Source: Silvibacterium bohemicum
GTDB lineage: Bacteria; Acidobacteriota; Terriglobia; Terriglobales; Acidobacteriaceae
Length of the DNA stretch: 64,000 nt
Direction of reading: 5' to 3'
NCBI RefSeq assembly: GCF_001006305.1
Contig: NZ_LBHJ01000020.1
Location: 434,001 to 498,000, forward strand
Each line of letters begins with the position of its first letter. Positions within the stretch are counted from its first letter, which is position 1. The position numbers and the translations under genes are program-made. This document shows positions 9,460 through 39,248 of the stretch, one piece after another. The notes under the pieces were generated by a model. That model was given only the letters and a program-made list of their open reading frames with translations. It was not told the origin of the DNA and searched no databases.

Positions 9460-9920
9460 CCAGCCCGTCTGTTTGGAGTTTCCGGTAATTCATGATTCTT
9501 CAGTATCCGGTTTTGTCCCGATGCACCGGCGCCGCAATCTACTCCGCCGTGCCGATTGTCGCATCGATGAAGTGATTCCTGCGTGAAGCACATCCAGGTT
9601 CACCTGAATTCAGCCTCCAGTGATTTTTGCATACACCATCCACTTGCCAGCTTCGGCGCGAACCTCCGCACCAATCGTGAAAGATAAAACGATTTCTCCC
9701 TCGCCTCTTGCCTGAAGTTGTTCGACAAATTTGTCAAGAAAAACGGCATATTTGTTGCTTATAAGAAATTTTCAAATCGACGTCTGTCAGTTTCTTCGAT
9801 ACAGATCAGCCTTCTTGTCGAGTTGCGATAAGAATAGCTTCCAGAAAAGCCAAAAATGTCGAGTTTCTTATAAGAAAACCGGCACACCCGATGCTCTGTT
9901 TTGAGCGTTCAAGTACCTAG
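9460..9920. promoter_or_regulatory. AT-rich intergenic region with two copies of a CTTATAAG palindrome
   Basis: This non-coding stretch separates the divergent porin and small-protein genes. It is markedly more AT-rich than its flanks between about 9700 and 9880. It contains a 12-bp palindrome GACAAATTTGTC (9724-9735), TTGCTTATAAGAAA (9755-9768) and a perfect 14-bp palindrome TTTCTTATAAGAAA (9864-9877). The two CTTATAAG centres are 109 bp apart. They could be operators for a dimeric regulator or overlap -10 elements (TATAAG). No convincing -35/-10 pair was found. Confidence 0.4.
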
Positions 9921-9956
9921 TCTCCTTTGCAGCGCAGACCTGCGCTGCAAAGGAGA
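9921..9956 (+). promoter_or_regulatory. Perfect 16-bp hairpin enclosing the Shine-Dalgarno of the next gene
   Basis: Arm 9921-9936 (TCTCCTTTGCAGCGCA) is exactly complementary to arm 9941-9956, with the 4-nt loop GACC. The right arm contains AAGGAG at 9950-9955, the ribosome binding site for the ATG at 9963, so the folded RNA would hide it. No U-tract follows on either strand, which argues against a plain terminator. A translational switch (thermometer, ligand or trans-RNA controlled) or a processing site is inferred. Confidence 0.6.
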
Positions 9957-9962
9957 AAACAC

Positions 9963-10169
9963 ATGTTCAAGCATCTTTCCCGCAAGATGATCCCCGCAAT
10001 TGCGCTCGTCGCATTGACTCTTCCGATCGGACAGGCAGTAGCTCAGAGCACCTCAACGCCAACTGGCAATTCAACAACCCTCGGAATCACTGGTACCGAT
10101 CCCGTGCCAACCTCGCCCGGCACAGCGGCAGTCATTCTGAGCCTGTTACCGCTGTTGTTCCCAGCGTAA
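9963..10169 (+). CDS. Small secreted protein of unknown function
   Basis: A 68-residue product begins at the ATG at 9963, 7 nt after AAGGAG. Residues 1-29 form a clear signal peptide (basic MFKHLSRK, hydrophobic core, cleavage near AVAQS). The short mature part is rich in Ser, Thr, Gly and Pro and ends in a hydrophobic tail (AAVILSLLPLLFPA). No family is recognised. The tail could anchor it in a membrane or be a recognition element. It lies ~220 bp before a 7-TM gene on the same strand and may belong to the same module, but no terminator or shared promoter was identified. The ribosome binding site is sequestered in a strong hairpin. Confidence 0.6.
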   Translation: MFKHLSRKMIPAIALVALTLPIGQAVAQSTSTPTGNSTTLGITGTDPVPTSPGTAAVILSLLPLLFPA

Positions 10170-10386
10170 TCAGCGAGGCTATCGGACAGCCGTGACCGAA
10201 GTCGCAAATGAACGTGAATGAGTGACGTTTATCGCCAGACGCTGTCTCATGATCGCTATGTACTGGGTGGGGTCCGCAATCGCAGCGGCGCCCACCCAGG
10301 ATGCGAGAGCGCCCAGTTTTGCAAAACTCTAAGACGGTCGCGGTGCATAATGAACTTCGACGGACGACGCCACGGAGACATCGCAA

Positions 10387-11169
10387 ATGCAGGTGACCGA
10401 CTTGGGGCGCTGGCTATGGGCAGCCGGCTTTATTGGCCACATTCTTCTATTCACGGTGCTGATCGTGCGCAGCCGAGCGCAACAATTTCCCATCTTTACG
10501 ACATTTGTCTTATCGAATCTGGTACGAACGGTGGTATTGTTTTTCATCCTGAAGTTCGGAAGCCGGCATACGTACTATTACACCTTCTGGTCGCTCGGTG
10601 CGTTGGACACTTTGCTTCAATTCGGTATCGTTTACGAGATGTACGCGAAGACCTTCCGTCCGCTTGGAGTATGGGCATCGGACGTACGCAGAGCATTTCT
10701 ATCGCTCATATTTGGAAGCCTCATCATCGCCTTCGGACTTACCATGGCGGCAGCTCCACACACCAAACTCCCGATCCAGTCGACAATCCTTAGGGCCGAT
10801 TTTTTTTCGTCTGTCTGGATGGGAGAGCTTTTTGTAGGAATGATCAGCATCTCGGTAAAGGCCGGCCTACCGTGGCAGGCTCATGTGGGAAGAATTGCAA
10901 AATCTCTGGGGCTCTACTGCCTTCTCGATACGTTGATCGGAGCAATGGCGACTCATTTCGGCTTGGATCAGAGCACCGCTCCTTATCTCGTTCTTCAACA
11001 GATTCGGCAATTCCTCTATCTCGGCTGCCTCTCGTACTGGATCGTGATGCTATGGAAAGAAGCTCCCGATCCCAGACGCATGTCCGATGAGCTCCGTCTG
11101 CGGCTCATCCGGTTACAGGCGAGGGTCGAGGCCGACCTGCACTGGATACGCGCGAGGCATCCTTCATGA
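10387..11169 (+). CDS. Seven-transmembrane protein of unknown function
   Basis: This is a 260-residue integral membrane protein with about seven hydrophobic helices spread over residues 8-225, followed by a basic cytoplasmic tail of ~35 residues (RMSDELRLRLIRLQARVEADLHW) that looks helical. GGAG lies 9 nt before the ATG. The stop overlaps the next start (ATGA, 11166-11169), so the two genes are translationally coupled. No known catalytic motif or family was recognised. The topology suits a sensor or scaffold paired with the downstream single-pass protein, which is inference only. Confidence 0.65.
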   Translation: MQVTDLGRWLWAAGFIGHILLFTVLIVRSRAQQFPIFTTFVLSNLVRTVVLFFILKFGSRHTYYYTFWSLGALDTLLQFGIVYEMYAKTFRPLGVWASDVRRAFLSLIFGSLIIAFGLTMAAAPHTKLPIQSTILRADFFSSVWMGELFVGMISISVKAGLPWQAHVGRIAKSLGLYCLLDTLIGAMATHFGLDQSTAPYLVLQQIRQFLYLGCLSYWIVMLWKEAPDPRRMSDELRLRLIRLQARVEADLHWIRARHPS

Positions 11170-11726
11170 TCGGGCAATCTGCTCTTTTCCTTATTGTCGT
11201 CTCGATTGTCGTGCTTTGCTTGTTGGTCGTCGCGTTCTACTCTCTGCGCCGTGCCCGGAGATCCACGGAGGGCTCCTGGGAAAGTATTCTTCAGCGGCTT
11301 GTACTTGTGGACCGCAACGGTATCGAGGATATTGCTCTCGACATCATAGATACAGCCGGGAAACGGCGAACTGATGATGACAGCTTCATGATGGAGGCCA
11401 AAGAGATCTGGACGCTGGTGGGCGGATGGAAAGGCCTCAATGCATTGGAAGCGAACTGCCTGGTGCTGATCGATCTCGCCTTCTATCTTCAGCAGTTGTA
11501 CCCGGAGGCCTTTGCCGTCACTCAACAACTGCGTCTCAGTGCCCGGGAGATCGAGTGGCAAATCAGCCGGCTGAAGATCGCAGAGAAGACTGGAAAGCTG
11601 GACGGCACAATTACCATGTACGGCCAGCATGCGATTGCGACCTACTATCTTATGACGCGCCGCCTGCTGGATCTCTATGCGCAGCTTCATAGCCCGATGC
11701 TGCCCCAGCTACAAAAGGTTTTGTAA
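11166..11726 (+). CDS. Single-pass membrane protein coupled to the 7-TM gene
   Basis: The 186-residue protein has one N-terminal transmembrane helix (~6-28) followed by basic residues (RRARRST), predicting a cytoplasmic C-terminal domain of ~155 residues. That domain is helical in appearance and begins with an amphipathic stretch (WESILQRLVLVDRNGIEDIALD). No family is recognised. Its ATG sits in the 4-nt overlap with the preceding 7-TM gene, so co-translation and probably complex formation are likely. Confidence 0.62.
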   Translation: MIGQSALFLIVVSIVVLCLLVVAFYSLRRARRSTEGSWESILQRLVLVDRNGIEDIALDIIDTAGKRRTDDDSFMMEAKEIWTLVGGWKGLNALEANCLVLIDLAFYLQQLYPEAFAVTQQLRLSAREIEWQISRLKIAEKTGKLDGTITMYGQHAIATYYLMTRRLLDLYAQLHSPMLPQLQKVL

Positions 11727-11761: not shown

Positions 11762-12508
11762 CTACGCGTTGGCCGAAAGCCCCTCAAAGCGTTGGAAGAC
11801 GGCGGCCACCTGTCCCACCACACTCACCTCGGTTCGATACTTCCAGTTCTCACTCATCACGGGTGAGGAATAATGCGGGTCCAGCGACAATATCGTCTTA
11901 CTTCGATCGAGAGAGCACCACGCGCAGACAAAACGCTCGGACGTTTCCAGGAAGTAAATCGGGCGGTCGTATTCACCTGTCCATTCCCTTCGATGGGCGA
12001 TCTTGCGTTTGTGGATGTTGATCAGCACGATCGTTCCCGGCTTCATCAGCGGGAAGAGTGCGAGATCGTCGTTTCCGATAATGCCGCGGCGATAATGGTT
12101 GGGCATGAATTCTAGAGACGGCAGCAGACGTGTCTTATCACATGTCCTCTCCGCAAGAATCTGGTCCGGAAGCCAGGTCCTCGCCTGCTCTTCCAACGGC
12201 CCTGAAGTGAGAAGAAGTGAGGCATTCGGACCATCCGAGGCATCCAGATTCGGAGCGCTCTTCGTCCCTTGCGAGCAGAGATCAAGCAGCTCTTCCGACG
12301 AGAGGTGGTAGATGTTGGAGAGCACAATCAATTTTGAAGAAGAGAAATCGTGTCCGTCCTGCTCGACGCGCGCCAGCCAGCTTGGTGAGATCCGCAGGTT
12401 GGGATTCCCGTACTTCTCGGAGAGACGTGCGCTCCTCTCCGCCACTTCCCGCAAGGTAAGTCCCCACTTCTGCCTGATTGCGCGAAGCCTACTGCCGATC
12501 CCCACCAT
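11762..12508 (-). CDS. XRE-family regulator with degenerate S24-like C-terminal domain
   Basis: The product (248 residues) starts at the ATG at 12508, which has GGAGG (12516-12520) 7 nt upstream; a longer in-frame start at 12559 has no such signal. Residues ~4-70 form an XRE/Cro-CI helix-turn-helix (GSRLRAIRQKWGLTLREVAERS). The C-terminal ~110 residues resemble the beta fold of LexA/CI S24 peptidases around FPLMKPGTIVLI. The expected catalytic Ser, in the D-S-M-x-P position, is replaced by a non-Ser residue and the Lys of the dyad is not apparent, so self-cleavage is unlikely. It is convergent to the 7-TM/1-TM pair, 35 bp away, and may regulate it; the target is unknown. Confidence 0.72.
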   Translation of the reverse strand: MVGIGSRLRAIRQKWGLTLREVAERSARLSEKYGNPNLRISPSWLARVEQDGHDFSSSKLIVLSNIYHLSSEELLDLCSQGTKSAPNLDASDGPNASLLLTSGPLEEQARTWLPDQILAERTCDKTRLLPSLEFMPNHYRRGIIGNDDLALFPLMKPGTIVLINIHKRKIAHRREWTGEYDRPIYFLETSERFVCAWCSLDRSKTILSLDPHYSSPVMSENWKYRTEVSVVGQVAAVFQRFEGLSANA

Positions 12509-12702
12509 TGGTGGACCTCCGATTGCTGAATTGAGCACGATGGCACTCGGCAGGCGCACGATACGCCCACCCAGCTAGGGGAGGTGATACCAAGTCTAGA
12601 CGAGCCCAGTCTCTTTCGGAGACAGGAGGACGTTTTTTAACTCTTGTGCGCGAGGCCATGCGGAGAATAAAACGGCATCGAAAGATAGCAGGTCTCGCGC
12701 CG

Positions 12703-14712: not shown

Positions 14713-14746
14713 CGAAAGGGCATCGCGGGTTGGCGATGCCCTTTCG
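14713..14746 (-). terminator. 14-bp perfect hairpin between receptor and TPR genes
   Basis: Arms 14713-14726 (CGAAAGGGCATCGC) and 14733-14746 are perfectly complementary around a 6-nt loop, 14 nt after the receptor stop codon. In the direction of transcription only a weak T-rich tract (ACATTT) follows. It may act as a terminator, as an attenuator lowering expression of the TPR gene, or as a 3' mRNA stabiliser. Confidence 0.65.
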
Positions 14747-39199: not shown

Positions 39200-39217
39200 G
39201 TCGCGTTCAGGAAGTGC

Positions 39218-39248
39218 AAAAGGGGCGACCTGTCGCCCCTTTTGTTTT
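39218..39248 (+). terminator. Rho-independent terminator after the mutarotase gene
   Basis: AAAAGGGGCG (39218-39227) pairs with CGCCCCTTTT (39234-39243), followed by GTTTTG. It has a GC-rich stem, short loop and T-rich tail, 18 nt after the stop codon. Confidence 0.85.

Follow-up and report, generated by a model that had tools for sequence, protein, structure and literature searches.

A long leader hairpin, probably half promoter, upstream of an exported peptide gene in Silvibacterium bohemicum

In bacteriophage T4, long early transcripts of gene e form an inhibitory structure, whereas transcripts from the late promoters just upstream of the gene lack the 5′ portion of this structure and are well translated (PMC3014915). 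A similar leader is described for I-TevI in the excerpted text of PMC2988022, and 5′ stem-loops that protect the mRNA, of the ompA type, are described in excerpts of PMC7509114 and named in reference titles of PMC3997798. Here we analysed a 64,000 nt stretch of the S. bohemicum genome (6.46 Mb), referred to below as the window, in which a long perfect hairpin precedes the gene of a small exported peptide (Table 1). As far as the excerpts go, the locus resembles T4 gene e and I-TevI in that a promoter, here a putative one recognised by its sequence elements, occupies the 5′ side of a hairpin sequestering the ribosome binding site, with long transcripts locked and short ones free; in the window the sequestration of the site in RNA with both arms comes from folding prediction. 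It differs from T4 gene e, for which the early and late timing has been demonstrated in the phage, in being a chromosomal peptide gene with a hypothetical long transcript, and in that a short inner hairpin would remain at the 5′ end of the mRNA. This remaining hairpin is like the ompA type, going by the excerpts, in its expected position at the mRNA 5′ end with the ribosome binding site close downstream, and differs in being tied to one gene family, with stabilisation predicted here by analogy. A stable hairpin immediately before a ribosome binding site that it does not include is also found, according to the excerpt of PMC2988022, in seg43 of Aeromonas phage 25, which is an unrelated gene and for which the effect on translation was there still to be determined. 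A read-through analogy with IS50 was dropped, as it had no support in PMC4265352, and our literature search found no paper on dRNA-seq in acidobacteria. The explanation that we favour for the window, with moderate confidence, is a promoter fused to a 5′-terminal leader hairpin, the full stem of which would lock only RNA begun upstream.

Table 1. Features of the leader and the adjacent genes (positions within the window)
Feature	Position	Strand	Remarks
Dyad GTTTC-N6-GAAAA	9863..9878	+	Probable transcription-regulator site, centre at about −60 from the predicted start
−35-like box TCTGTT (TCGGNN in relatives)	9895..9900	+	17 bp 5′ of the −10 box
−10-like box TAGTCT	9918..9923	+	Shares its final three bases with the 5′ end of the left arm
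Left arm of the 16-bp repeat	9921..9936	+	5′ half (about 9921–9928) putative promoter DNA; 3′ half putative mRNA 5′ end
Inner hairpin AGCGCA-GACC-TGCGCT, conserved part	9931..9946	+	Predicted start coincides with, or lies close to, the mRNA 5′ end
Right arm with Shine-Dalgarno AAGGAG (9950–9955)	9941..9956	+	
68-aa exported peptide	9963..10169	+	GTDPVP motif; signal-peptide-like start
260-aa membrane protein	10387..11169	+	Seven predicted membrane helices; no Pfam family
186-aa protein	11166..11726	+	Hydrophobic N-terminus; start codon overlapping the membrane-gene stop codon; relatives in 53/143 loci, many with too little flank to tell
XRE-type helix-turn-helix regulator	11762..12559	−	HTH_31 above cut-off; relatives in 33/143 loci, many with too little flank to tell; candidate binder of the dyad

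The leader repeat and its relatives

The two arms of the leader repeat are exact reverse complements, which as RNA form 16 bp around a GACC loop, and the repeat finder reported the same repeat (9921–9956) as 17-nt arms with 2 nt between them. It is the longest perfect inverted repeat in the window (loops of up to 10 nt), ahead of repeats with arms of 14, 13 and 12 nt, and since the longest arm in 40 random windows matched for dinucleotide composition was 10 nt, it is not a product of chance. Two other perfect repeats, at 14713–14746 (14 nt arms) and 39217–39244 (13 nt arms), also exceed the random maximum. The predicted fold of 9900–10020 had an energy of −44.9 kcal/mol (z = −5.06; 0/200 shuffles as low), and the 45-nt stretch with the 16 perfect pairs one of −30.3 kcal/mol at 37 °C. 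The AAGGAG in the right arm lies 7 nt 5′ of the ATG at 9963, and the terminator scan called no terminator at the hairpin. This bears out the first-pass annotation, which had described a perfect 16-bp hairpin lacking a terminator-like U-tract, with the AAGGAG inside its stem and a 68-residue exported peptide behind it, and had suggested the folding calculation. An Rfam search of 9500–10500 gave no riboswitch or other described family at the gathering score. A dispersed hairpin repeat was ruled out, since the genome has two copies of CTCCTTT-N-AAAGGAG and the extended stem is missing from one of them. A separate GC-rich inverted repeat (15-nt arms, 87% complementary) lies between the peptide and membrane genes at 10263–10299, likewise with no call in the terminator scan.

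Searches of 61 genomes with the leader-and-peptide DNA returned the locus itself alone, and a peptide search in 61 genomes returned three places in its own genome and a weak match (L006) with internal stops. The two paralogues in its own genome (38 and 47% identity) both have a hairpin 5′ of the ribosome binding site, and in both cases a gene related to that of the 260-aa membrane protein comes next. The peptide being divergent, the membrane protein was the useful search anchor, and 143 loci (139 non-redundant) were gathered with it, the named relatives including an Acidobacteriales MAG, Acidicapsa dinghuensis and Granulicella sp. L46. Leaders that were near-identical, contained N, had short upstream sequence, lacked a recognisable ribosome binding site or preceded a low-scoring ORF were skipped before counting. 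Two different sets of 53 leaders were used, one defined by the hairpin only, and one by the hairpin plus a TANNNT box (for the locking test and the −35-like box); the latter required the box 3–9 nt 5′ of the stem, so that its mean offset of 6.4 nt (sd 1.1) is bounded and is not evidence.

Among 81 non-redundant leaders, a hairpin just 5′ of the ribosome binding site was present in 53 and absent in 28. The inner stem was compared in 35 aligned leaders (alignment A3), with 5/40 leaders (L029, L097, L127, L140 and L149) left out for their different stem sequence. Paired cells made up 87.9% of this stem versus 80.9% in shuffles, and 14 cells had changes on both sides versus 5.3 in shuffles, with 0/500 shuffles as high in either case. 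Two of the five covariation measures failed to exceed shuffles, as the number of pairs with two-sided changes (3 of 6) was reached by 90/500 and that of further pair types by 168/500, and the loci are related and were picked for having the hairpin, which makes the test weaker than its figures. An RNA model (R1) gave 17 matches in 15/120 genomes, eight of which were leaders already in the set. The nine further matches examined comprise six that precede peptide ORFs (L174, L176, L177, L178, L181 and L182), two that do not (L179 and L180), and one (L183) upstream of an unlike ORF of 285 aa. New places account for six of these nine matches, and three of the six (L174, L176 and L181) precede peptide genes.

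Promoter elements in and upstream of the stem

A TANNCT box was located 3–9 nt 5′ of the stem in 37/53 non-redundant hairpin leaders, most commonly at 6 nt (14 leaders) or 7 nt (11 leaders), with a background at offsets of 15–60 nt of 0.065 occurrences per offset on average for the 53 leaders together. The hairpin combined with this box preceded 49/94 peptide ORFs versus 2/214 other ORFs in the window and the same loci, and is thus missing in 45/94 peptide leaders; the hairpin alone was less specific (65/94 versus 63/214). One of the two other ORFs (L036, position 850) appears to encode an exported protein like the peptides, only longer, and the second (L025) is a membrane gene of the family. 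A search of the S. bohemicum genome for the box-and-hairpin pattern gave 7 matches versus 5 for a backwards control pattern; three of the seven are at peptide loci, including one match to the opposite strand, and the remaining four have no ribosome binding site after them, as judged by eye.

In the 23 leaders of the subgroup to which the window belongs, the box reads TAGTCT in 17. TCGG is found 23 nt 5′ of the box in 9/23, and TCGG, TCTG or TGGG at this position in 12/23, with 5 occurrences at all other scanned offsets together. Farther upstream is a dyad, GTTTC-N6-GCAAC, a motif defined in this analysis and not derived from a database, which was spotted by eye in some of the sequences and then scored, with its position outside the score. 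Its best match is centred 46.5 or 47.5 nt 5′ of the box in 21/23 leaders (the exceptions being L042 and L201), and 14/23 leaders score 9 or 10 out of 10 (that of L201 being elsewhere) versus 1.6% of shuffled regions. The dyad was not seen in the other subgroups, where the best scores were 6–8 out of 10 (30 leaders). At 9755–9768, 109 nt farther upstream in the window, there is a sequence, TTGCTTATAAGAAA, that is a near copy of the dyad palindrome TTTCTTATAAGAAA.

Reading of the sequences by eye placed the first base of the inner stem, an A, 7 bases after the box in 19/23 leaders, 8 bases after it in three (A9931 in the window being one of these) and 9 bases after it in a single leader. Since the boxes and the dyad occur at fixed distances, TAGTCT is likely to be the −10 box of a promoter, and with the −10 box at this position transcription is expected to start about 7 nt downstream, near A9931 (9929–9932) and so inside the stem. 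The outer half of the hairpin would then probably be promoter DNA. The first-pass annotation had named a start mapping downstream of the left arm as speaking against its switch, and a start of this sort is what the −10-like box, the −35-like box and the spacing of the dyad predict.

Transcript start and access to the ribosome binding site

Folding of RNAs ending at 10022 predicted an unpaired probability of the ribosome binding site of 0.00 with each of six 5′ ends in the range 9860–9921, 0.11–0.26 for 5′ ends at 9923–9927, and 0.38–0.48 for those at 9928–9934. Over five RNA lengths, 5′ ends at 9928–9932 gave 0.38–0.99 versus 0.00 for a start at 9915, and the lock thus requires a start upstream of the −10-like box. 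The inner hairpin had a pair probability of 0.95–0.97 in RNAs ending at 9962, and of 0.44–0.97 with coding sequence included; for starts at 9931 and 9932 with coding sequence to 10022 its pairs fell at 0.63 and 0.44, respectively, and it was not the lowest-energy fold. The residual pairing of the site in short RNA arose only once coding sequence was added. The claim of the first-pass annotation that the stem blocks initiation is therefore retained for predicted RNA with both arms, but its premise that the mRNA normally holds both arms is at odds with the promoter elements, which predict a start inside the stem.

According to the explanation that we favour, a regulator, probably the adjacent XRE protein, would bind the dyad, and RNA polymerase would use the −35-like and −10-like boxes to start near A9931. 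The mRNA would then open with the short inner hairpin, with the ribosome binding site directly after it and, without its left-arm partner, largely open. By the precedent of ompA, the 5′-terminal hairpin would most likely protect the 5′ end of this short message. Only transcripts from farther upstream would contain the whole left arm, with their ribosome binding site modelled as completely locked, and the same DNA may thereby silence read-through RNA yet leave messages from its own promoter translatable, by analogy with T4 gene e. A role of the full-length stem as a read-through lock is possible on the folding model; the gene upstream of the window promoter points away, and no source of read-through is thus evident. 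The predicted locking in long transcripts, no stronger than for permuted pairs, likewise speaks against such a lock. Against the explanation as a whole count the near-contiguous stem of L174 and the CUCC:GGAG pairing in the subgroup (both described below), which favour a lock, as well as the modest pairing of the inner hairpin in short RNA that includes coding sequence, the 45/94 peptide leaders without the combined element, and the absence of the dyad from other subgroups.

Alternatively, the element may be a 5′-terminal stabilising hairpin only, with the outer complementarity in the window a coincidence between the TCT of the −10 box, the CC next to it and the GGAGA of the ribosome binding site, plus four chance pairs (TTTG/CAAA). 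We regard this as unlikely, though the best placed of the alternatives. It agrees with the contiguous extension past the inner stem, which is 10 bp in the window versus 0–2 bp in the other 22 subgroup leaders, with the outermost stem pairs being uncompensated in the 23 leaders, and with the predicted locking in long transcripts, which was no stronger than for permuted pairs (P = 0.35 and 0.96). It is opposed by the permutation test of complementarity, in which the −10 box and spacer matched the ribosome-site side better than permuted pairs, both in the subgroup without the window (P = 0.009) and in other subgroups (P = 0.0002), in a set of related loci with kinship not controlled; the segment farther upstream had no such excess (P = 0.42–0.52). 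The excess also counts against the explanation that we favour, as a promoter alone would not need the complementarity. A further point against coincidence is L174, a subgroup-like locus outside the 23, in which a 13-bp stem with one bulge (−25.0 kcal/mol) covers the ribosome binding site.

The reading closest to that of the first-pass annotation, in which the main mRNA has both arms and stays locked until the stem is opened by a trans RNA, a ligand, heat or a ribosome translating upstream, appears improbable. It draws on the complete pairing of the site predicted for RNAs starting at or before 9921, on the excess complementarity of the outer segments and on the near-contiguous stem of L174; CUCC:GGAG pairing is possible in 21–23 of the 23 subgroup leaders as well, but these pairs hardly vary and so say little. 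Against it stands the overlap of the left arm with a putative promoter backed by three elements at fixed distances, and the distribution of the stem in relatives, since a contiguous stem reaching the ribosome binding site was found in 1/23 subgroup leaders, that of the window. Loss of pairing in relatives and covariation of the arms, both put forward earlier as checks on the hairpin, gave a divided answer: the inner stem recurs with compensating changes, the outermost pairs show none, and the outer segments have an excess of complementarity but not of predicted locking. RNA thermometers are imperfect stems that are marginally stable near growth temperature, whereas 16 perfect pairs at about −30 kcal/mol are too stable to be opened by heat, and the lack of an Rfam family at the gathering score in this region also speaks against a switch. 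No sign of control by a ligand, heat or a trans RNA was found. Overall, the interpretation of the hairpin as a switch is only partly supported.

Lastly, a DNA operator, with the repeat as a repressor-bound dyad over the −10 box and start site, would account for the overlap with the promoter and start and for the outer complementarity extending into the −10 box, but is very improbable given that the loop between the half-sites varies (3–5 nt in the subgroup, and up to 9 nt, the limit searched, elsewhere) and so fits an RNA role better than a DNA dyad, that the stem sequence is altered on both sides with G-U pairs present (35 aligned leaders), and that a different dyad is present upstream at a fixed position. 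In the 23 subgroup leaders the ribosome binding site begins 0–5 nt past the stem, a further difference from the ompA type.

The peptide gene module

No Pfam or NCBIfam model matched the 68-aa peptide at E 0.1, in agreement with the first-pass description of a protein of no known family, but its paralogues and many relatives show that it does not stand alone. In the 129 of 139 non-redundant loci with >600 nt upstream of the membrane gene, a small exported ORF was present 5′ of this gene in 98, versus 7/129 on the reverse strand with the same finder, and 72 of these 98 ORFs contain a [DNSAT]PxP motif, versus 0/7 on the reverse strand. Some precursors contain internal repeats or lie in tandem gene arrays. 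Tandem internal repeats were noted in L019, L020, L022, L038, L041 and L086 (for example GPSAPAPLPPPAFA in L041), and arrays in L013 and L040, with four peptide genes in tandem upstream of a single membrane gene; such repeat precursors and arrays resemble multi-copy precursors of peptide signals.

The membrane protein was found in 234/250 sampled genomes of one acidobacterial family (E 1e-15). Across 297 genomes sampled from the phylum it occurred in 30, all 30 of them members of that same family. None of 26 members had a Pfam match at E 0.01, and searches with the peptide, membrane and 186-aa proteins were negative against NCBIfam (E 0.1) and PADLOC (E 0.01). A structural model built from four sequences was fair (mean pLDDT 74.3, pTM 0.67) and has seven long helices and a C-terminal one; that from a single sequence was of low quality (mean pLDDT 53.7). 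In a Foldseek search no PDB entry reached E 0.001, the best being a microbial rhodopsin (0.028), and a second fold comparison matched GPCR-like bundles with Z up to 13.3 (197 residues, rmsd 4.1); these borderline matches are not evidence of a relationship and may reflect a common helical arrangement only. In the 23-member subgroup, with the twin L160 standing for L103, the XRE gene is present in 20 loci (some partial or 25–28% identical) and the 186-aa gene in 22, and the missing cases had little downstream sequence. Ten membrane-gene leaders were inspected. In those of L020, L037 and L041 a strong hairpin (−23.6 to −30.0 kcal/mol over 60 nt) sequesters the ribosome binding site of the membrane gene itself, with arms that differ yet are complementary; the other leaders have weaker or other structures.

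Peptide-responsive XRE regulators are known from the Rgg/PlcR type, and the locus is like these in that the gene of a small exported peptide lies close to one for an XRE-type regulator; it differs in the presence of a predicted seven-helix membrane protein and of the 186-aa protein. We propose that the module has a role in signalling, with a peptide of GxDPxP core (in at least five repeats in some precursors), a seven-helix protein as possible sensor, a 186-aa partner, and an XRE protein that would drive the promoter. The joint reading, in which the leader controls an acidobacterial peptide-signalling module and restricts translation of the signal to transcripts from its own start, is speculative and rather doubtful. 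No description of a peptide communication module of this kind was found in the open-licence literature, and we consider this an undescribed peptide gene module of soil acidobacteria.

The arrangement proposed for this leader would combine a T4-like embedded promoter with a retained 5′-terminal hairpin. The locus also illustrates how a striking hairpin can mislead, as half of it is probably promoter. The element is recurrent, with a putative promoter, a 5′-end hairpin and a ribosome binding site fused at near-fixed spacing, and is open to experimental testing. Should the module indeed signal, a common phylum of soil bacteria would have a peptide communication system.
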